The notes below the pieces were generated by a model, which was not told where the DNA came from, searched no databases, and saw only the letters and a list, made by a program, of their open reading frames with translations. Positions 47,230 to 64,000 of a stretch of DNA of 64,000 nt are shown piece after piece. Positions within the stretch are counted from its first letter, which is position 1; the number at the start of each line of letters is the position of its first letter. The DNA comes from Jiella pelagia (lineage in GTDB: Bacteria > Pseudomonadota > Alphaproteobacteria > Rhizobiales > Rhizobiaceae): NCBI RefSeq assembly GCF_026898155.1, contig NZ_CP114029.1:2956001-3020000 (forward strand), written 5' to 3'. A program made the translations under genes and the position numbers.

Positions 47230-50559
<3,330 letters not shown>

Positions 50560-50563
<4 letters not shown>

Positions 50564-52797
50564 CACCCACCCCCACAACCACCCCTGCCGGCATCGAGCA
50601 CCGTCCCGAAGAGCATCAAGCCTTCGAAATCGGTCGCGGCGTCCACGGTGATCCGTTTTCCATCCTCGGGCGGTTCGGCGTCGAAGGCGGCGCGATCGTC
50701 CGGGTGTATCGTCCGGGCGCCCATTCGGCGACGGTGATCGACGGCGCTGGCAAGGAACTGGCGGCTCTCGAACCGTTCGGGCCGGAAGGCTTCTTTAGCG
50801 GTTTCGCGGCCGGCCTCGACGCCACCTCGCCCTACCGGATGCGCTACAGCCATGGCGGCGGCGCCGGCTGGGACGAGGAGGATCCCTACCGCTTCGGTCC
50901 GATCCTCGGCGATCAGGACGTCTATCTTATCGCCGAGGGCAGTCATTATCGGTTGTATGAAAAGCTCGGCGCCCATCCGACGACGATGGACGGAACGCCG
51001 GGCGTCGCCTTCGCCGTCTGGGCGCCGAACGCGCGGCGGGTCTCGGTGGTCGGCCACTTCAACTCATGGGACGGTCGCCGCACGGTGATGCGCAAGCGCC
51101 ATGAATGCGGCGTCTGGGAGCTGTTTGTCCCGCATCTCGGCCGGGGCGAGGTCTATAAGTTCGAAGTCATCGGCGCCGACGGCAATATTCAGCCTCTGAA
51201 GGCCGATCCGGTCGGCTTCGTGCAGGAAACGGCCCCATCTACGGCCTCGGTCGTCGACGGTCTCGTCGAGCACGAATGGCAGGATGGCGACTTCCGGGCG
51301 CAATCGGCCGAATGGCAGAGCCGCGAGGCGCCGATCTCGATCTACGAGGTGCATCTCGGCTCATGGCGCCGCGGCAAGGACGACTCTATTCTTGACTACG
51401 ACGATCTCGCGGGCGAACTCGTCGCCTACGTCAAGGATATGGGCTTCACCCATGTGGAGTTCCTGCCGGTTTCCGAGCACCCATTCTATGGGTCGTGGGG
51501 CTATCAGCCGATCGGCTTGTTCGCGCCCTCGTCGCGCTGGGGCTCGCCGGAAGCCTTCGCCCGGCTGGTCGATGCGCTTCACCAGGCGGGAATCGGCGTC
51601 CTGCTCGACTGGGTGCCGGGCCACTTCCCGACCGACGTCCATGGCCTCGTGCGCTTCGACGGCACGGCCATCTACGAGCATCCCGACCCGCGCCGTGGCT
51701 TCCACAGGGACTGGAACACGCTGATCTACGACTATGGCCGGCCGGAGGTGAAGAACTTCCTCGTCGCCAACGGCATGTACTGGCTCGACCAGTTCCACAT
51801 AGACGGCCTGCGCGTCGATGCCGTCGCCTCGATGCTCTATCTCGACTATTCCCGCAATCAGGGCGAATGGGAGCCCAACATCCATGGCGGGCGCGAAAAC
51901 CTCGAGGCGATCGCCTTCCTGAAGGACGCCAACGAGCGGGTCGGCGAATACTTCCCCAAGGCGACCACGCACGCCGAGGAATCCACCGCTTTTCCGGACG
52001 TGTCCCGGCCGACCTATGCGGGCGGTCTCGGATTTCACTTCAAGTGGAACATGGGCTGGATGCACGACACCCTGCATTACATGCAGGAGGACCCGGTCAA
52101 TCGGCGCTACCACCATCATCACATGACCTTCGGGATGGTCTACGCCTACTCGGAAAACTTCGTCCTGCCGCTGTCCCACGACGAGGTGGTCTACGGAAAG
52201 GGCTCGCTGCTCGGCAAGATGCCCGGTGACGAGTGGCAGAAGTTCGCCAATCTGAGGGCCTATTACGGCTTCATGTGGAGCCATCCGGGCAAGAAGCTCC
52301 TGTTCATGGGCTGCGAGTTCGGCCAGTCGGCGGAGTGGAACCACGACCAGTCGCTCGACTGGCATCTGCTCGAACAGCCGAACCATGCCGGCGTGCAGCG
52401 GCTCGTGCGTGATCTCAACACGCTGTATCGGGAGATCCCGGCGCTGCATCAGCTGGATTGCGACGCGGCCGGCTTCGAATGGGTCGACACCGCCAATGTC
52501 GAGGAGAGCGTCATCGCATTCCTGCGCAAGGATCGCGAGGGTCGCCAGGTGCTGATCATCTCGAACTTCACGCCGATCCCGCGCCACGGCTACCGGGTCG
52601 GGGTTTCGAAGCCTGGCACCTGGACCGAGCGGCTCAACACCGACGCCGAGATCTATGGCGGCTCGAATGTCGGCAACATGGGTGGCAAGATCGCCGAGGA
52701 GGAGTCCGTCCATGGCCGGCCCTATTCGATCTCGCTGACACTGCCGCCGCTGGCGACCGTGGTCATGGTCCACGAGGGAGGAGCCGAACAGGAGTAA
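50560..52797 (+). CDS. glgB: 1,4-alpha-glucan branching enzyme
   Basis: Adds alpha-1,6 branches to alpha-glucan. The 745-residue protein has an extra N-terminal domain, a CBM48 ([20 protein letters not shown]), and the GH13 catalytic barrel with [15 protein letters not shown] (nucleophile Asp), [11 protein letters not shown] (acid Glu) and [13 protein letters not shown]. The start overlaps the treS-mak stop by four bases, so glgE, treS-mak and glgB form one operon. Confidence 0.96.
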
Positions 52798-54429: not shown

Positions 54430-55308
54430 TCAGCCGATCGGCACCACGTCGACGAAATGATCGGTCGCCTGCGGCCCGGCGGTGACGAAGGCCCCGGCGA
54501 TCGGCAGTGCGTCCGAATAGTCGCGGCCGACGGCGACGACGATGTGGTCGTCGCCGGCAAGGATCCCGTTGGTCGGATCGAAGCCGACCCAGCCGATGTC
54601 GTTTCCGAGCCAGGCGTCGACCCAGGCGTGCATGGCGTCGGCGCCTTCGAGGCGGGGCTGGCCCTTCGGCGGCTCGGTGCGCAGGAAGCCGCTGACATAC
54701 CGGGCGGGGATGCCGTTCGCCCGCAGGCCGGCGATCATCACGTGGGAGAAATCCTGGCAGACGCCGCGCTTCTGGGCGAAGGCCTCGGCGACGCTGGTGC
54801 CGACGCTGGTCGAGCCGGGCTCGTAGGCGAAGTCGGCGCGGATGCGCTTCGTCAGCGCCATGACCGCTTCGCCCGCCGGCTGCTTCGTCGTCTCGAAGCC
54901 TTCCGCTACATAGGCCGTCAATGCGGCGAGCGGAGCGATGCGGCGGCTGGGGCCGAGATGGTGGAGCGGCGAGCCGCCCTCAGCCGAACGGCAATGCAGC
55001 GCTTCGTCCGCGAGCGCGTGGAGGCTCGGCGAGGCGTCGAGGGCTGCCGGTGGCCGGTCGACCGTGACCTTGGCCTCCATGACGACGGACAATTCGGTCT
55101 GCGGCGTGAAGAAAGCGATGGCATCGACGCCGTTGTGGAAGAAATCGACCTCCCGCGCATGCTCGCCGGGGCGGGGGGCGATCGCCACCTCCACTTTCTG
55201 GAGCGTCTGCCCCCCGCCGTCGCGCGGGCGCACGCGCAAGAGGTGGCGGGCATCACTCACGGCAGAGGGGTAGTCGTAGGTGATCTTCAGGCGGATGGCG
55301 TATTTCAT
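54430..55308 (-). CDS. transglutaminase-like cysteine peptidase family protein
   Basis: A 292-residue protein with the N-terminal beta domain and the transglutaminase core typical of bacterial COG1305 proteins. The catalytic triad is visible: Cys in AQKRGVCQDFSHVM, His in GADAMHAWVDAWL and Asp in GWVGFDPTNGI. No signal peptide is seen, so it is probably cytoplasmic. The start overlaps the stop of the ATP-grasp/alpha-E gene (ATGA). The pair belongs to a conserved cluster predicted to make and trim peptide linkages; the substrate is unknown. Confidence 0.9.
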   Translation of the reverse strand: MKYAIRLKITYDYPSAVSDARHLLRVRPRDGGGQTLQKVEVAIAPRPGEHAREVDFFHNGVDAIAFFTPQTELSVVMEAKVTVDRPPAALDASPSLHALADEALHCRSAEGGSPLHHLGPSRRIAPLAALTAYVAEGFETTKQPAGEAVMALTKRIRADFAYEPGSTSVGTSVAEAFAQKRGVCQDFSHVMIAGLRANGIPARYVSGFLRTEPPKGQPRLEGADAMHAWVDAWLGNDIGWVGFDPTNGILAGDDHIVVAVGRDYSDALPIAGAFVTAGPQATDHFVDVVPIG

Positions 55309-57727
55309 TCCGGTCCCCCGCTCCATTCGGCCGCCGCCCGCGGGCTCGACAGGAGATAGCGCTGGGTGAGGAGGTCGGAGATCAGCGCCAGATCGCCGAC
55401 GATTCGATCGAGAAAGGCGCTGTCGACCTCGACGGCGTCGGCCGTCTGCAGTCGCACCTTCAGCCGGGCGAGGCGGCGGAACAACAGGTCGGGCGTCTCG
55501 CCGAGATGCACTCCCGGCAGCGCCGAGGTGACCTCGGCGAGGGTGTTGATCTGGAAGGCGAGGGAGCGCGGATTGAGCGGGTCGAGGACGGCGAGATCGA
55601 CCACCGTCTCCTCCGAAAGGTCCACCGAGTAGCGCCGGCGATAGGTGACGGAGGAATCGGTGAAGGTGAGCAGCGCTTCCAGTGCGCCGACGGGCGCCTC
55701 GCCTGAAAGCAGGGCCGAGACCACCGCCGCCGTCGCCTGGCCGCGCTCCAGCGCCCGGCCGCACTGCATGAAGCGCCAGCCGGTGAAGCGGTACATGTTC
55801 TCATGGGCAAGGCCGGCAAAGCCCGAGTGATGGGTGAGGATGGCGCTGGTCAGGCCGACGACGTCCTCGTCCTTCTCGGCGATGGCGTCGAGAATGAGGG
55901 CGACGATGTCCTTCAGCGTGCGCCAGGCGTCCGGGGAGAAGCGCTCGCGGATGCGCGAGGCGGTGTCCGCCGCCTGCCGGGCGAGGCCGAGGAGACCGCG
56001 CTCGGGATGCCCGCCCTCGATCTCGACGCCGTAGTCCTCGAGGATCGTCGCGATGCGGGCCTCGAGGCTCGCCCTCGCTCCAGCCCTCGCCGGCGCGCCC
56101 GGCATGGAGCCGCAACAGCCGCGCCGCCACCTCGCCGCGCTCGGCATAGCGGCCGAGCCAGAACAGGTTGTCCGCCGCCCGGGCCGGCAGCGCGCCCGGA
56201 AGGCGCCGGGAGAAGCGGTCACCCTTCGGCCCGAGCAGCGTCACCGGCTTGGCGGCCGGCGCGGGCGAGGGGATCCAGACGTCGATCGAGCCGCCGCCCC
56301 GCTGCATCGAGATCACCCGCGCATCGCGCGAATCGGCGACCCGTGCGAAGCCGCCGGGCATGACGTGCCAGCCCTCCTCGTCACGCATCAGGAAGGCGCG
56401 CAGCGTCACCGGCCGCGCTTCCAGTCCCTCCTTGCCCCAGACTGGGGTCGTCGACAACGCGGCGATTTCCTGTCCGACGAGAGTGACGCCCTCGCGGGTC
56501 GTGGCGGGAACCTTCTGGCCGCCGGTGCCCGGGCGCGCCGCCATCTCACCCATCACCGGAAAGTGCGGGGCGCCGGGAAAGGCCGGGCCGAGCTGCAGCC
56601 GGGACGCGTTCTCCTCGACGAAGCGGCGGATCTTCTCCTGGCCGCACCACCAGGTGGCGATGGTCGGCAGCGTCAGTTCCTCGCCAAGCAACGCCTTGGC
56701 CAGCGGCTTCTGGAAGGCGAGCAGCGCCGGTGTCTCGAGAATGCCCGCGCCGAGCGCGTTGACCAGCGTCAGGGCGCCGGAGCGGACGGCGCGGACGAGA
56801 CCCGGCGTGCCGATGCGCGAGCCGCCGAAAAGTTCGAGCGGATCGCAGAAATCCGCGTCGAGCCGCCGCCATAGGACGCGGATCGGCTGGAATCCGTCGA
56901 CGGTCCGCACTTCGGCGCAGTCGTCATGGACGACGAGGTCGCCGCCTTCGAGGAGGAGAAGACCGAGATAGCGGGCGAGATAGGCGTGTTCGTAATAGGT
57001 CTCGTTGTGCGGGCCGGGCGTCAGAAGGCCGATGCGGGCCCGCTCCGGCCCGCCGAGGGCGAACAGCATCTCCCGGAACCTTCGGAAGAATCCGGCGAGG
57101 CGCTCGACATTGAGGGCGCGGGAGACGTCCGGAAAGGCCTTTGATGTCGCGACGCGGTTTTCCAGCGCGAAGCCCGCTCCCGAGGGGGCCTGGGTGCGGT
57201 CGCCGAGCACCCACCAGCGCCCGTCCGGCCCGCGTCCGAGGTCGACGGCAATGAAGGAGAGGAGCGGCGCGCCGAGCCTTGCCTGATCTGCGAGGGGCCT
57301 CAGGAACTCCGGATTGCGTCCGAGGAGGATGCCCGGCAACACGCCCTCGGCAATCACCCGCCGCTCGCCATAGAGGTCGGCGAGCAGCTTTTCCAGGAAG
57401 GTGGCGCGCTGGACGAGACCGTCGCAGAGTGTCGTCCACTCGCCCCGGTCGATGACCAGCGCCGGGTGGCCGAGGGGCCATTCGTGGCTCTGCTCGCTGC
57501 CCTCGCCATAGACCTGGTGGAAGACGCCTGCCTCGGAGAGATACTGCCGGGCCGAGCCGAAGCGCCGGTCGAGCCTCGCCCGTCGCCATCGGCGCGAGCT
57601 TGCCCATCAGCGGCGCGTAATGCGGCCGGACCGTGCCGCCGGGGGCGATCATCTCGTCCCTGCCCTTGGCGGCGAGGGCGGCATAGCGGCGAATGAGGTC
57701 GGGTTCGGGGGGCACGTGATTCCGCAT
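55305..57727 (-). CDS. circularly permuted ATP-grasp / alpha-E domain fusion, frame broken twice
   Basis: An 806-residue (after correction) two-domain protein. The N-terminal part is the circularly permuted ATP-grasp ligase (DUF404/DUF407 type) with LLGRNPEFLRPLADQARLG, WVLGDRTQAPSGAGFALENR and LLTPGPHNETYYEHAYLAR. The C-terminal part is the alpha-helical alpha-E domain (DUF403), starting at ARAADNLFWLGRYAERGEV. In many genomes the two are separate genes. Breaks are at GAGCCTC (57571-57577), joining MATGE to LDRRFGSARQYLSE, and at GAGGCTC (56064-56070), joining GWSEGE to LEARIATILEDYG. Predicted to form amide bonds; product unknown. Confidence 0.91.
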
Positions 57728-57789
57728 GATGATCGTTGTTCGGCTATGCTACAGGGCTGCCGACCCGTCGATCATAGAGTACAAATCGC

Positions 57790-58602
57790 ATGCGCGCGCG
57801 CCTCAAGACCATTCTGCTGTCGAACCCCTGGGAACGCTTCATCGTCTCCCTGATCATCGTCAACGCGGTGATCCTCGGCCTGGAGACCGACGCCTCGATC
57901 ATGGCTTCCTTCGGCCATGTCCTGATCGCCCTCGACACCTTCATCCTCGGGCTCTTCGTCCTCGAGATCGCCTTGCGCATCTATGCCTTCGGCTGGCGAT
58001 TCTTCACCCAGCCCTGGTCGCTGTTCGACTTCTTCGTCGTCGGCATCGCGCTGGTGCCGGCGACCGGGCCGCTGACGGTGCTGCGGGCGCTTCGCATCCT
58101 GCGGGTTCTCCGCCTGATCTCGGTCGTTCCGTCGCTGCGCCGCGTCGTCGGCGGTCTGGTCGCGGCGCTGCCTGGCATGGGCTCGATCATCGGCCTGTTG
58201 CTTCTGACCTTCTACATCTTCGCGGTCATGGCGACGAAGCTCTATGGCGGGACCTTCCCGGACTGGTTCGGCACGCTCGGCGCGTCCTTCTACACCCTCT
58301 TCCAGGTGATGACGCTGGAAAGCTGGTCGATGGGCATCGTCAGGCCGGTGATGGAGGCGCATCCCACCGCCTGGCTGTTTTTCGTGCCCTTCATCCTGTG
58401 CACGACCTATGCGGTGCTCAATCTCTTCATCGGTGTCATCGTCTCGGCGATGCAGGACGAGCAGTTGGCGAATGCCGAAGCGGAACAGTCGCACCGTCAC
58501 GACGAGAACCTGGAGATCCTCGCCGAGGTGAAGGCGATGCGGGCCGAGATCGCGGATCTGCGGGCGGCGACGGAGCGCAGGGCGCCCGGATCGCAAGGCT
58601 GA
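57790..58602 (+). CDS. bacterial voltage-gated sodium channel (BacNav)
   Basis: A 270-residue six-helix ion channel. The S4 voltage sensor LTVLRALRILRVLRLISVVP carries regularly spaced Arg. The pore loop reads FQVMTLESWSMGIVRPV; TLESWSM is the sodium selectivity filter of characterised channels such as NavAb. The C-terminal tail (from about DEQLANAEAEQSHRHDENLE on) looks like the four-helix neck and coiled coil of the tetramer. It is divergent from the ATP-grasp gene with only 62 bases between starts. It likely serves motility, pH or osmotic responses, as suggested for relatives. Confidence 0.93.
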   Translation: MRARLKTILLSNPWERFIVSLIIVNAVILGLETDASIMASFGHVLIALDTFILGLFVLEIALRIYAFGWRFFTQPWSLFDFFVVGIALVPATGPLTVLRALRILRVLRLISVVPSLRRVVGGLVAALPGMGSIIGLLLLTFYIFAVMATKLYGGTFPDWFGTLGASFYTLFQVMTLESWSMGIVRPVMEAHPTAWLFFVPFILCTTYAVLNLFIGVIVSAMQDEQLANAEAEQSHRHDENLEILAEVKAMRAEIADLRAATERRAPGSQG

Positions 58603-58904
58603 GACCCGGGCGGAGCGTGCCCCTTCGGGAGGCCGGGACGGCCGGTGTCGAAAGCGGGGGATGAAGGCAAGGCGCCGGTTGTGGCCGATAGCACCGGCTC
58701 AGAACCGCAGGGCCCACCACGCGGCACGATAAGCAGATTCAACGCTCAAGGGCGTATTCTGGCGCGCCGGCGGCAACTGGCGGCTTCGCCACGCATGGTC
58801 GCGACTCATCGGTCTCCTACATGGGGTGAGACACTTGCCGGGGCGCGGACGGACGCTCCGTCCAGTCGGAGTTGTCCATCATCCGTCTTGCCAGCGAGGT
58901 CCAG
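58603..58904. other. intergenic region, nothing recognised
   Basis: About 300 bases between the channel gene and the PRC-barrel gene. No gene or convincing structure was seen; the promoter of the PRC-barrel gene should lie near its right end. Confidence 0.4.
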
Positions 58905-59333
58905 ATGCAACTGAAATCCTTCCCTGCCACAGCCGCGCTCGTCGTTCTGACGGGCACGGCAGCGCTCGCACAGGATCTGCCGGATCTGTCTTCGGCCTCG
59001 AGCGATGCCGTCTCGGCTCTTTCCGATGCGGCTGAAAGCAAGCTCTTGATCGCCGACCTGATCGGCGCCGAAGTCTCGGACCCATCCGGCAACACCGTCG
59101 GGACGGTGGACGATCTGGTGGCCATTCCGGGTGGGCGCATCGTCGCCGCACTGATCAAGCCGAGCGATGGCGGCGACCTCGTTCCCGTACCATTCAAGGC
59201 AGTGAAGGTTTCGCAGACGGCCGACAAGGCGTCCGCTGCGCTGCCCGACACGCTGGGTGCGATGCGCGACAGTTCGGTCGTCCAGAAACTGTCCGATGCG
59301 CTCGGCTCACTGGCGGACGGCTCCGTCGACTGA
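58905..59333 (+). CDS. secreted PRC-barrel-like protein
   Basis: A 142-residue protein with a Sec signal peptide (MQLKSFPATAALVVLTGTAA, cleaved near LAQ). The mature part has an Asp/Ser/Ala-rich spacer, then a PRC-barrel-like fold: LLIADLIGAEVSDPSGNTVG, TVDDLVAIPGGRIVAALI and VPVPFKAVKV. The ATG at 58905 has a GAGG ribosome site. The role is unknown; periplasmic PRC-barrel proteins are common and poorly characterised in this group. Confidence 0.78.
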   Translation: MQLKSFPATAALVVLTGTAALAQDLPDLSSASSDAVSALSDAAESKLLIADLIGAEVSDPSGNTVGTVDDLVAIPGGRIVAALIKPSDGGDLVPVPFKAVKVSQTADKASAALPDTLGAMRDSSVVQKLSDALGSLADGSVD

Positions 59334-59415
59334 ACCGGGCCGGCATGTGCGCTCCGTCCGTCTCTGGCGGGCCAGGCGGACTTGGATATGTCGGTGGCGC
59401 CGCTTGGGCTGTGTC

Positions 59416-59684
59416 TTATCGATGCTCGTCCGCGTAGGCTTCGAGCACGCCGCTCATCGTTTCGGCTGGATCAGTTCCCTGCCGCTCGAAGAATTCCATC
59501 CCCGTCCGGCTGAGGGTGATTGACACGCTGGATCGCGTCCGCGGCGGGTGGGGCACCGCATCCTTCCAGAAGTCGTCGCCGAGTTCCTCTCCGTCGGGAG
59601 CGTCCGACGGAGAGGAAGTTCATCGGCCTCATCCATGGCCCGCAACGCGTCCAGCGAGACCCGCCGAATATCGTTGTCGGTCAC
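59416..59684 (-). pseudogene. orphan BrnA-like antitoxin, frame broken at a hairpin
   Basis: The N-terminal half reads MTDNDIRRVSLDALRAMDEA and the C-terminal half, in another frame, continues APDGEELGDDFWKDAVPHPP and then VSITLSRTGMEFFERQGTDP, ending MSGVLEAYADEHR. This is the layout of BrnA/DUF4415 antitoxins: charged linker, FW motif, ribbon-helix-helix. The halves join if one base is added; the total is then 89 codons plus stop. The break falls within a perfect inverted repeat at 59594-59623. No brnT toxin gene is adjacent. It could be a decayed antitoxin or a base lost in sequencing. Confidence 0.65.
59594..59623. repeat. perfect 12-base inverted repeat at the frame break
   Basis: CCTCTCCGTCGG and CCGACGGAGAGG flank a six-base spacer. 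The hairpin lies inside the coding region of the BrnA-like gene at the point where its frame changes. It may be the cause of a deletion or of a sequencing dropout. Confidence 0.7.
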
Positions 59685-59750
59685 GTGTGCCTTCTTTCCA
59701 CGCCGTTATGATGCGAAGACGTCCCACCCGGTCTCCACCTCCAATCGGCG

Positions 59751-62700
59751 TCACATCACAGCCAGCCCCGCCGGCCGCCTCAGATCCAGCGTCGCCGGGA
59801 AAGACGGGTCCGGAATCTCGCGCACCGGCTGGTAGGATCCCGGCGTGTGGCCGATGTCCTCGAAGCGGGCGAGGCGCCGTGCCTCGGCCTCGTAGGAATT
59901 GACCGGGAAGGTCTCGTAGCTGCGGCCGCCCGGATGGGCAACGTGGTAGACGCAGCCGCCGAGCGAGCGCTTCGACCAGCGATCGTAGATGTCGAAGGTG
60001 AGCGGCGCGTGGGCCGGGATCGTCGGGTGGAGGCCCGAGGCCGGCTGCCAGGCCTTGAAGCGCACGCCCGCGACCGCCTCCTTGCCGCGGCCGGTCGCCA
60101 TCATCGGCACCTCGCGGCCGTTGCAGGTGACGATGTGGCGGGCCGGGATGAATTCCGACAGCTTCACCTGCAGCCGCTCGACGGAGGAATCGACGAAGCG
60201 CACCGTGCCGCCGATCGCCCCGGTCTCGCCCATGACGTTCCACGGCTCCAGCGCCTGGCGCAGCTCCAGCGTCATGCCCTCGCGCTCGATCCGGCCGCAG
60301 AAGGGGAAGCGGAACTCCGACTGGGCCTCGAACCATTCGGGCTTCAGCGGATAGCCTGAGCGGGAAAGATCGGCGAGGACGCCCTGGAAATCCGCCCAGA
60401 CGAATTCCGGCAGCATGAAGCGGTCGTGCAGTTCGGTGCCCCAGCGCACGAACTTGCCCTCTTCCGGCGCCTTCCAGAACTTCATGATCAGCGCCCGGAT
60501 CAAGAGCTGCTGGGCCAGACTCATCTTCGGCTCGGGCGGCATCTCGAAGCCGCGGAACTCGACGAGGCCGAGCCGGCCGGTCGGCCCGTCCGGCGAATAG
60601 AGCTTGTCGATGCAGATCTCGGCCCGGTGGGTGTTGCCGGTGACGTCGATCAAAAGGTTGCGGAACAGCCGGTCGGTGAGCCAGGGCGGGGTCGAGAAGC
60701 CGTCTCGCGTCACCTGGGCCATGGCGATCTCCAGCTCGTAGAGCTGGTCGTGGCGGCCCTCGTCGACGCGGGGCGCCTGGCTCGTCGGGCCGATGAACAG
60801 GCCGGAGAACAGGTAGGACAGCGAGGGATGGCGCTGCCAGTAGAGGACGAGCGACTTCAAAAGGTCCGGCCGGCGCAGGAACGGCGAATCCAGCGGCGTC
60901 GCCCCGCCGACGACGACGTGGTTGCCGCCCCCCGTTCCGGCATGCTTGCCGTCGATCATGAACTTGTCGGTGCCGAGCCGCGACTGACGGGCGTCCTCGT
61001 AGACGCCCATGGTGATCGCCTTCGACTCTTCCCAGGACGCCGAAGGATGGACGTTGACCTCGATGACGCCGGGATCCGGCGCGACGCGGATGACGTTGAG
61101 GCGCGGATCGGCCGGCGGGCCGTAGCCCTCGATCTGGACCGGCAGGTCCTCGCGGATGGCGATCTCCTCGATCGCACCGAGAAGGTCGAGATAAGCTTCG
61201 GCGGATTCCAGCGGCGGCATGAAGACGCAGAGCTTTCCGTCGCGCGGCTCGATCGACAGCGCGGTGCGCACATGGCCGACGATCTCGCCGACGACCGGCG
61301 AGGCAGGGCCGCCGGAAGACGCCGCGCTGCCGGCTGCCGTGCCCGCAGGTAGAGGGCCGAGCGGCTGCATCCTCTGGCGCCCGCCGCCATCACGCTCGGC
61401 GCTCTGCGACATCCCACCGATCGATTGTGTCACACCGCCAGCGCCATCTTGCGGCGCGTCGGCCGGTCCGCCCATGTGCTGCTGCATCTCCACCCGGCCC
61501 CATTGCTGACGGCTCTGCGGCGGCAGCGGCGGGAAGGGCTGGGTCGGATCGTCGGGATGGATGAACGGGAAATCCGCCGGGCCGAGATGCGGCAGGGCGG
61601 CGAGCGGCAGGCGGTAGCCCATGGCGCTGTCGCCGGGCACGAGGAAAAGGTTCTTGCGCCGTGTCTTCCACCGCTCGGACAGCCATCGGACGCCCCGCGC
61701 CCGACCCTGCCAGGCCTGCACCGGCAGGACGTGGCCGGTCGGATTGGGCAGCCCGCGCTCGAACACCTTGGCGAGGCGGGCCCGCTCCTCCCGGTCCTCC
61801 AGCTTGGAATCCGTCGGCTCGACGTTTTCGGGCAGCTGCGCCTCGCGCAGCAGCCAGTAGCCGGCGTCTTCGAAGGCGGGAAGCACGTTGTCGGAGGGCA
61901 CGCCGATCGCTTCGGCGACGGCCTTGGTGAAGCGCTCGGATTCAGCCGTGCCCACGGGCGCCGCATCGGTCTCGCGGGCGATCGCCTGCGGGTTCTGCCA
62001 GATCGGCACGCCGTCCTTGCGCCAGTAGAGCGAGAAGGTCCAGCGCGGCAGCGTCTCGCCGGGATACCACTTGCCCTGGCCGTAATGGAGGAAGCCGCCC
62101 GGTGCGAAGCGATCGCGCAGCTTGCGGATCAGCTCGTCGGCGAGCCCGCGCTTGGTCGGGCCGGTGGCGTCGGCGTTCCATTCCGCCGCCTCGAAGTCGT
62201 CAATCGAGACGAAGGTCGGCTCGCCGCCCATGGTGAGGCGGACATCGGCGGCCTGCAACTCGGCATCGACCTTCTTCCCGAGTGCGTCGAGCCTCCTCCC
62301 AGCTCTCGTCGGAGAACGGGTAGGAGACGCGCGGGCGCTCGGCGACGCGGGTGACGGACATGGCGAAGTCGAACTCGACCTCGGCATAGTCGACGCCGCC
62401 GGAGATCGGCGCGGCCGAGCGATAATGCGGCGTCGCCGCGAGCGGTACGTGGCTTTCGCCGGTGAGGAGGCCCGAGGTCGGGTCGAAGCCGATCCAGCCG
62501 GCACCGGGCAGATAGACCTCCGCCCAGGCATGCAGGTCGGTGAAGTCGACGTTGGTGCCGGCCGGGCCGTCGAGGGCGACCTTGTCGGGCTTCAGCTGGA
62601 TCAGGTAACCGGAGACGAACCGGGCGGCAAAGCCCAGATGCCGCATGACGTTGACCAGCAGCCAGGAGGAATCACGGCAGGAGCCGGAGCCCTTTTCCAG

Positions 62701-63216
62701 CGTTTCCTCGGGCGTCTGCACGCCCGGCTCCATGCGCACCAGATATTCGACGTGGTTGGCGATCGTCTGGTTCAGCCCGACGAGGAAGTTGACCGTGTGG
62801 CTCTCCGAGCGGTCGAGATCCTTCATGAACCGCTCTACCAGCGGGCCCATCGGCTCGGGCACCAGATAGGCGGCGAGATCGCTCTTGAGGATGGGATCGT
62901 ATTCAAAGGGCCAGGCCTCGGCGGCCTCCTCCACGAAGAAGTCGAACGGGTTGTAGACCGTCATGTCGGCGAGGAGATCGACCTCGATGCGGAACTCCGT
63001 CGCCTTTTCCGGGAAGACGAAGCGGGCGAGATAATTGCCGAACGGGTCCTGCTGCCAGTTGATGAAGTGGTTTTCCGGCGAGACCTTCAGCGAATAGGAC
63101 GGCACCTTCGTGCGCGAATGGGGGGCGGGACGGAGCCGGATGACCTGTGGAGCGAGGGTGACGGGACGGTCGTATTTGTAGTGCGTCAGGTGGTTGAGCG
63201 CGGCAAGTATCGACAT
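59751..63216 (-). CDS. DUF2126 protein with N-terminal transglutaminase domain, frame broken once
   Basis: A 1154-residue (after correction) protein. The first 280 residues are a transglutaminase-like domain with Cys in [16 protein letters not shown], His in [14 protein letters not shown] and Asp in [11 protein letters not shown]. The remainder is DUF2126, with [36 protein letters not shown], a Gly/Gln-rich linker, and conserved C-terminal stretches such as [13 protein letters not shown]. The break is at GAGCCTC (62289-62295), where GAGCTC joins DESWEE to [12 protein letters not shown]. The start at 63216 gives [19 protein letters not shown] core member of the ATP-grasp/alpha-E cluster; activity unknown. 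Confidence 0.9.
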
Positions 63217-63435
63217 GGTCGCTTTCGTCTTTGCGGGGAGCGTCCCGTTTCGTTTCGCCAGTAAGCTTACCGTCATCTTGCGGTGCGGCAAGGCTTATCC
63301 GGCTTTCCGGGTCGCCAGGGCGCGGATGTAACGCTGCGATATTCACTCCGGCCGGGCTTTTGGCCGGAACCAGCCATCCTTCCAGACATTGACGGGCGCA
63401 ACGTTTTTCGCGCGATCCGCGCGCCGAGGTCCCTG

Positions 63436-64000
63436 ATGAAACTGTTTTCCTGCCCCGCCTGCTCACAGGTCGTGTTCTTCGAGAACGTCCTGTGCGAGCG
63501 CTGCGGCCATGCCCTCGGCTACGAACCCGACACGAACCGGATGCTGGCGCTGGAGCCCGACGACGGCATCTTCGTTTCCGCCGGCACTCATTCGGATGGG
63601 GCGAGCTGGAAATACTGCGCGAACTACGAATACGGCGTCTGCAACTGGCTGATTCCCGGGGACAGCGCCGACCAGTTCTGCCGGGCCTGCCGCCACAACG
63701 TCACCGTCCCGGACGTCTCCGATCCCGACAACATCCCTCGCTGGCGGAAGATGGAGATCGCCAAGCGGCGGATGGTCTACACGCTCATCCGTCTCGGGCT
63801 GCCGCTGATCACCCGCGACGAAAATCCCGACGGGCTGGGCTTCGACTTCCTCGCCGAGACGCCGGGCGAGCCGCATGTGATGACGGGGCACGACAACGGC
63901 CTCATCACCATCGCCCTCACCGAGGCCGACGACGCCGAGCGTGAGAAGCGGCGCACCTCGATGGGTGAGCCCTACCGCACCCTCCTCGGCCATTTCCGCC
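63436..64000 (+). CDS. putative zinc-ribbon metallopeptidase (COG4307-like), 3' end outside window
   Basis: The first 188 residues of a protein that runs past the window end. The N terminus is a zinc ribbon (MKLFSCPACSQVVFFENVLC, then ERCG), with more cysteines in CNWLIPGDSADQFCRACR. The peptidase motif would lie beyond the end. The family is often encoded beside DUF2126 and ATP-grasp/alpha-E genes, which fits its place here, divergent from the DUF2126 gene. The ATG at 63436 follows directly after a GGTCC stretch with a weak ribosome site. Confidence 0.8.
   Translation, partial: MKLFSCPACSQVVFFENVLCERCGHALGYEPDTNRMLALEPDDGIFVSAGTHSDGASWKYCANYEYGVCNWLIPGDSADQFCRACRHNVTVPDVSDPDNIPRWRKMEIAKRRMVYTLIRLGLPLITRDENPDGLGFDFLAETPGEPHVMTGHDNGLITIALTEADDAEREKRRTSMGEPYRTLLGHFR

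Follow-up and report, generated by a model that had tools for sequence, protein, structure and literature searches.

A degenerate ATP-grasp/alpha-E fusion in a conserved ligase and transglutaminase gene cluster of Jiella pelagia

Introduction

Which protein forms the amide bonds in a gene cluster that looks like a peptide ligase system, and is it the one whose fold suggests it most? This question is raised by a 64,000-nucleotide stretch of the Jiella pelagia genome (C1:2956001-3020000; the whole stretch is called the window below), the end of which, from 54.4 kb onward, is occupied by such a cluster. It encodes a circularly permuted (CP) ATP-grasp domain fused to an alpha-E domain (the fusion), a stand-alone transglutaminase-fold protein (TG1), a second transglutaminase-fold domain joined to DUF2126 (TG2-DUF2126), and a zinc-ribbon metallopeptidase. 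We know of no product of the ATP-grasp/alpha-E/transglutaminase/DUF2126 system. The initial annotation placed these genes in a peptide synthesis or modification system recognized by comparative genomics, and took the single-chain ATP-grasp/alpha-E protein to be its peptide ligase. The placement is borne out by Pfam, which identifies TG1, CP_ATPgrasp with Alpha-E, TG2 with DUF2126, and a zinc ribbon with Peptidase_Mx. The families CP_ATPgrasp, Alpha-E, Bact_transglu_N/Transglut_core and DUF2126 are linked, with matches above the Pfam cut-off, and the cluster is thus of a known kind, the type of system described by Iyer et al. (2009), as defined from passages of later papers. The claim of a single-chain ligase is not supported. 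The initial annotation named loss of the ATP-binding residues as its refutation, and the window piece and nearly all relatives have indeed lost the residues that bind metal and ATP.

Loss of catalytic residues in the fused ATP-grasp

We compared 47 stand-alone ATP-grasps (46 and PDB 3N6X) with 125 fused proteins. The sequences came from two sets of 20 stand-alone loci and two sets of 20 fused loci, spread across many GTDB families, from the 80 window-like loci described below, and from loci L093-L098. E161, N163, K321, K368, G374 and D428 are each kept in 47/47 stand-alone proteins; in the fused ones they are found in 1, 0, 3, 11, 5 and 0 of 125, respectively. E161 and N163 are both lost in 124/125 fused proteins, and the fusion piece in the window has G, R, P and G at the E161, N163, K321 and K368 sites. 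The stand-alone proteins carry the motifs LEDN...PSG, VKE..GSGGYGM and ADDK. The fused ones have LGDR...PSG or similar in place of the first, while the counterparts of the other two are gone and the Gly-rich loop is lost. Three plasmid-borne fused proteins (Tsukamurella, Enterobacter, Caballeronia) also lack E161 and N163, K368 being retained in the one from Enterobacter, and the stand-alone copies of Enterobacter and Caballeronia retain all four of E161, N163, K321 and K368.

For comparison, in E. coli glutathionylspermidine synthetase (GspS) we take D318, E330 and N332 to bind Mg, and K498 and K533 to bind ATP; all five are visible in its sequence. Using hhalign, the stand-alone D...E-x-N stretch pairs with D318...E330-x-N332 of GspS (E 0.43, not significant alone). 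Neither the stand-alone nor the fused profiles gave significant matches to GspS/YgiC, and only the alignment of the stand-alone profile with GspS had the motif in register. PDB 3N6X (Methylobacillus Mfla_0391, a stand-alone CP ATP-grasp) and GspS keep the E-x-N and two Lys, unlike the fused protein. D428 ('VDLRPF') was considered as a metal ligand and dropped; since no GspS counterpart could be aligned, we call it family-conserved only. Judging from these residues, the fused protein is very probably devoid of normal ATP-grasp catalysis. The Pfam text for CP_ATPgrasp_1 is said to mention both active and inactive versions.

The fold is retained. A model of the fused protein (L014 orthologue; predicted local distance difference test, pLDDT, 83.2; predicted template-modelling score 0.81) matches 3N6X with Z 38.7, glutathione and homoglutathione synthetases with about 19-23, and GspS with 18.6-20.9, in the same fold order. 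The likeness to 3N6X is thus one of shared fold, and so is that to glutathione and glutathionylspermidine synthetases. Cp1B of E-64 synthesis is likened to the fused ATP-grasp part by fold (PMC12568646; papers given by PMC number are cited from excerpts, except PMC11081392). Positions conserved at 90% or more number 87 among the 125 fused and 148 among the 47 stand-alone proteins; nine are conserved in both sets and differ between them, among them N163, which becomes Arg, and D319, which becomes Glu. The alpha-E motif R-[YFWH]-x-E-R occurs in 122/125 fused open reading frames (ORFs; searched over the whole ORF). In a quickly built ATP-grasp tree with 57 fused and 47 stand-alone members, which included 12 of the 80 window-like loci and has some long end branches, one branch divides the two sets (Shimodaira-Hasegawa-like approximate likelihood ratio test 100). 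At the level of sequence, the fused gene is still under constraint and not decaying.

Distribution in relatives and across the phylum

To place the cluster among its relatives, we used the best 80 of at least 422 confirmed ones, picked by similarity to the ATP-grasp part. At the cluster locus, the nearest named relatives among these 80 are three Jiella species (84-90%) and a metagenome-assembled genome, Fulvimarina sp. NAT173 (96%). All 80 loci have the fusion as a single open frame and contain TG1, and DUF2126 is present and co-directional with both in 73/80. The linkage expected from the initial annotation is thus conserved. The zinc peptidase is found in 17/80 loci; HExxH is kept in 17/17 of the orthologues found, and the gene is complete in L005:11284-12513. 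DUF2126 is itself spread over two ORFs in L053 and L080.

The fusion had been regarded as a peculiarity of the window, which its presence in all 80 loci and in the wider phylum contradicts. We surveyed 299 genomes drawn from the phylum, counting as a fused row a single stop-free frame at least some 800 aa long; the fused counts are lower bounds, the coordinates behind them were transcribed by hand, and the DUF2126 and alpha-E genome sets were compared by hand. Alpha-E was identified in 156 genomes, which include all 84 genomes with DUF2126, and the proteasome-like N-terminal nucleophile (NTN) hydrolase peptidase Anbu in 102. At least 83 genomes have a fused row, 73 of these with DUF2126, and the starts of the two genes are at most 6 kb apart in 72 of the 73 genomes having both. 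We retrieved 45 of the 83 fused-row genomes and found ATP-grasp and alpha-E in one frame in 45/45. DUF2126 and Anbu start at most 15 kb apart in 16 of the 51 genomes having both, and Anbu was not matched in 33/84 DUF2126 genomes. Hence, Anbu does not define the DUF2126 branch.

A stand-alone ATP-grasp beside Anbu

A second locus of the same genome, at a distance of 1.3 Mb (about C1:1693269-1696591), contains ATP-grasp, alpha-E and Anbu, the latter at C1:1695860-1696588 and adjoining separate ATP-grasp and alpha-E genes. The ATP-grasp gene of this locus (L004) is cut, and its readable piece keeps the E, N, K and K as well as the Gly loop. The proteasome-like peptidase had been described as absent; there is indeed no NTN-hydrolase peptidase in the window, but because Anbu is present at the second locus it is not missing from the organism. 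The only two Bact_transglu_N matches of the genome are both in the window, with none at the Anbu locus. Downstream of Anbu, after 1.9 kb, comes a gene for a gamma-glutamyltranspeptidase (L004:12449-14035).

The co-occurrence of the fusion with a second alpha-E is general in our survey: at least two alpha-E matches were found in all 83 fused-row genomes, against 4/73 of the other alpha-E genomes. An alpha-E match may represent only part of a gene, and one of those four genomes is Jiella pelagia itself, its fused copy being broken. In some other genomes the two parts are merged. Loci L093-L095 and L097 contain stand-alone ATP-grasp, alpha-E, Anbu, TG2-DUF2126, the fusion and TG1; L096 is a merged locus without the fusion, and L098 has all but Anbu (L093-L097 were chosen for the closeness of DUF2126 and Anbu, L098 otherwise). 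On an Enterobacter roggenkampii plasmid (L182), the order is ATP-grasp, alpha-E, large transglutaminase, fused-size ATP-grasp, transglutaminase, and a Caballeronia locus (L183) has the same order plus a zinc metallopeptidase, the large proteins of both being taken as TG-DUF2126 from their length and place. The Enterobacter plasmid (NZ_CP116251.1, IncFII, 90.7 kb) carries this five-gene version with arsC and an IS26 element nearby.

DUF2126 as a candidate ligase

The initial annotation overlooked that DUF2126 is itself a predicted ligase. A model of the L016 orthologue matches glutamine synthetases (GS) with Z up to 13.5 over about 240 residues, and Dop with 11.5; Foldseek matched YbdK (E 0.015), and the N-terminal part of the TG2-DUF2126 model matches the transglutaminase 3ISR. 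This GS fold agrees with PMC2588565, which lists the M. tuberculosis Rv2566 type as transglutaminase plus carboxylate-amine ligase, an architecture that, as described, is like that of TG2-DUF2126. Invariant Glu, His and Arg are numerous in 36 DUF2126 sequences. Searching the PDB by sequence with TG2-DUF2126 turned up no convincing match outside the transglutaminase part. Given the model, DUF2126 is the likely ligase in the window.

The presence of two transglutaminase-fold proteins, proposed earlier, was confirmed. The TG2 triad C184/H233/D249 is invariant in 36 aligned sequences, and the Cys-His-Asp motifs of TG1 are found in 80/80 loci, a stricter pattern matching all three in 47/80. M. tuberculosis Rv2569c is presumably a homologue of TG1. 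Rv2569c has been published as a serine protease, and the word transglutaminase is absent from the main text of that study (PMC11081392).

Related operons and nitrogen control

The Anbu operon comprises the same four families, ATP-grasp, alpha-E, transglutaminase and Anbu (PMC6376114, PMC5666114). The second locus of Jiella pelagia shares ATP-grasp, alpha-E and Anbu with it but has no transglutaminase, whereas the window cluster differs from it by the fused, site-degenerate ATP-grasp/alpha-E, by DUF2126, and by having no Anbu. According to the same excerpts, Yersinia Anbu has no peptidase activity, and Anbu is raised in nitrogen-limited P. putida (PMC6376114, PMC5666114). In B. cenocepacia, I35_5080-83 (DUF404/407, DUF403, two transglutaminase-like genes) has the same families and is probably the same kind of operon (PMC5491218). 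This cluster is NtrC/sigma54-dependent and, in the rows printed there, its ATP-grasp and alpha-E are separate genes, unlike the window fusion (PMC5491218). Nitrogen also appears in two other excerpts: domains co-vary with urea genes in marine metagenomes (PMC3597751), and PP2685-2687, a transglutaminase-like gene and its neighbours, are raised under nitrogen limitation (PMC3325844).

In contrast to the Burkholderia cluster, sigma54 control of the window operon was not supported by a scan upstream of the DUF2126 gene in 65 alphaproteobacterial relatives of the window. Sites with at least 11/12 matches were found in 0/65 loci (0.24 expected from mononucleotide shuffles), and sites with at least 10/12 matches in 4/65 (3.18 expected). 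We also scanned 49 stand-alone ATP-grasp operons (L093-L098, L101-L140, L182, L183 and L004). A sigma54-like -24/-12 site of at least 11/12 was present in 10/49, against 0.19 expected from mononucleotide shuffles, and for this reason nitrogen control may hold for the stand-alone ATP-grasp half in other lineages. The stand-alone copy of Jiella pelagia (L004) has no sigma54-like site of at least 11/12.

Among the literature matches listed, in which the content of Iyer et al. (2009) is not covered, there is no functional study of the fused ATP-grasp/alpha-E or of DUF2126. One match concerns a different ATP-grasp/transglutaminase operon (PMC12239564), and two mention an ATP-grasp protein in one row of a table each, with no tie to the CP_ATPgrasp family (PMC13207237, PMC12542648).

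Gene content and assembly of the window

The features of the cluster are collected in Table 1. We placed the start of TG1 at the first Met preceding its domain, where it overlaps the fusion gene's stop.

Table 1. Genes of the cluster, in positions of the window
Feature	Position	Strand	Evidence and remarks
TG1, stand-alone transglutaminase-fold protein (Bact_transglu_N + Transglut_core)	54430..55308	-	Pfam; Cys-His-Asp motifs present
Circularly permuted ATP-grasp fused to Alpha-E	55305..57727	-	Pfam CP_ATPgrasp + Alpha-E; frame shifts twice, near 57.57 kb and again near 56.07 kb
Ion_trans channel protein, between fusion and DUF2126 genes	57790..58602	+	Pfam; match in 6/80 loci
PRC-barrel protein, between fusion and DUF2126 genes	58872..59333	+	Pfam
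TG2-DUF2126	59751..63216	-	N-terminal transglutaminase-fold, C-terminal glutamine-synthetase-fold ligase domain (predicted); frameshift near 62.29 kb
Zinc ribbon + Peptidase_Mx metallopeptidase	63436..64000, beyond window end	+	Pfam; divergent from TG2-DUF2126

The window has the fusion in three separate frames (57748-57575, 57561-56068, 56078-55308) and TG2-DUF2126 in two. The description of ligase and alpha-E as one polypeptide therefore does not apply to the window as assembled, and it rests on the relatives, in which the fusion is a single ORF. The fused gene is intact in L013-L016; the identity of the L013 orthologue to the three window pieces is 88-96%, and that of L014 74-89%. The source genome (5.95 Mb in 3 contigs, completeness score 85%) has further cut genes, namely a Proteasome-family gene, the second ATP-grasp and TreS. 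Because several other genes are also cut, the frameshifts of the window are most likely indel errors of the assembly. The Proteasome-family gene (C1:1974173-1974683), cut between two frames, is presumably hslV.

The ion channel and PRC-barrel genes are outside the conserved core of the cluster, the latter having no match in the 80 loci at E 1e-8. TreS-maltokinase and GlgB genes adjoin the cluster (window 47291-52797), with the start of TreS in another frame. As TreS is found in only 12/80 loci, we treated both as local neighbourhood and rejected a trehalose/glycogen link. A search of NCBIfam at E 1e-3 returned no family for the window cluster proteins or for the second-locus ATP-grasp and alpha-E; the second-locus Anbu gave one match, far below its cut-off.

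Discussion

We consider it slightly more probable than its denial that a pseudo-ATP-grasp/alpha-E adaptor, a DUF2126 ligase and two transglutaminase-fold enzymes act here together with the distant locus. An amide-ligase system would then be divided over two loci, with one half of it in the window. The fused protein, with its glutathione-synthetase-like fold and alpha-E motif, would not bind Mg-ATP in the usual way, and would thus most likely bind and present a substrate or dock to the active paralogue; for the adaptor role taken by itself our confidence is somewhat below even. DUF2126, which has a GS fold and lies in cis, would form amide bonds, as would the stand-alone ATP-grasp of the distant Anbu locus. 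To judge by folds and motifs, the ligase products may be cleaved, deamidated or transferred by TG1, by the TG2 domain, by Anbu and by the zinc peptidase. Our data demonstrate the fold, the linkage, the residue loss and the presence of a second alpha-E alongside the fusion, whereas we infer an adaptor function, a division of labour and an order of steps. In a broader and more tentative form, the fused CP-ATP-grasp/alpha-E may be an ancient, almost uniformly inactivated branch of pseudo-ligases that needs an active stand-alone pair and usually DUF2126 (73/83 genomes), making up a two-ligase machine with a pseudoenzyme bridge, in two loci here and in one elsewhere.

Could the single chain still be an active peptide ligase, with alpha-E as its substrate or carrier domain? 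Its CP_ATPgrasp_2 score is far above the Pfam cut-off, the fold is retained, and an ATP-grasp encoded in the Yersinia Anbu operon liberates phosphate from ATP (PMC6376114). However, the Yersinia ATP-grasp and alpha-E are separate proteins (PMC6376114), and the joint loss of E161 and N163 is accompanied by that of K321 in 122 and of K368 in 114 of the 125 fused proteins, which makes an active ligase improbable. It is very improbable that this strain carries the cluster as a relic, decaying or pseudogenised: frameshifts do interrupt the fusion and DUF2126 genes of the window, but other genes of this assembly, of limited completeness, are cut as well (the presumed hslV, the second ATP-grasp, TreS), and the closest relatives carry an intact fused gene.

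Some pseudokinases have new chemistry at the old site. A comparable change in the fused protein, such as ATP-independent amide transfer or binding of another nucleotide, would fit the conservation of the changed motif (N163 is Arg in 114/125 and D319 is Glu in 124/125), the P and G of PSG, kept in 125/125, and an acidic residue at the D148 position in every fused protein. Most of them, however, lack the two Lys on the phosphate side as well as the Gly-rich loop, and there are no biochemical data among the literature matches listed; we regard new chemistry as rather unlikely.

Several observations weigh against the model of a pseudoenzyme adaptor working with DUF2126 and the distant locus. The D148 position, which aligns with the GspS metal ligand D318, is acidic in all fused proteins (D in 72, E in 53), so that other nucleotide chemistry is possible, and K368 and E161 persist in 11 and one of them, respectively. 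DUF2126 was not seen near the fusion in 7/80 loci, and two of the four closest, from Jiella (L014, L015), have none within 10 kb on each side. A DUF2126 match is lacking in 10/83 fused-row genomes, and 8 genomes with DUF2126 show a single alpha-E match and no fused row (e.g., L096); some exceptions to the pairing sit on broken contigs. The DUF2126 model reaches a mean pLDDT of just 65.5, with about 240 residues aligned to GS. Finally, co-expressed proteins of the Yersinia Anbu operon showed no specific interaction with Anbu in the excerpts of PMC6376114, and hence shared loci do not prove a complex.

The kind of system was already known, and what replaces the single-chain ligase is a more specific and testable model. 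The system is widespread in the sampled phylum, where DUF2126 is found in more than a quarter (84/299) and alpha-E in more than half (156/299) of the genomes. If the fused protein is a pseudoenzyme, assays of it alone should fail, and DUF2126 and the stand-alone ATP-grasp would matter jointly. For the species with the merged five-gene version, the model gives a prediction that one deletion series could test.

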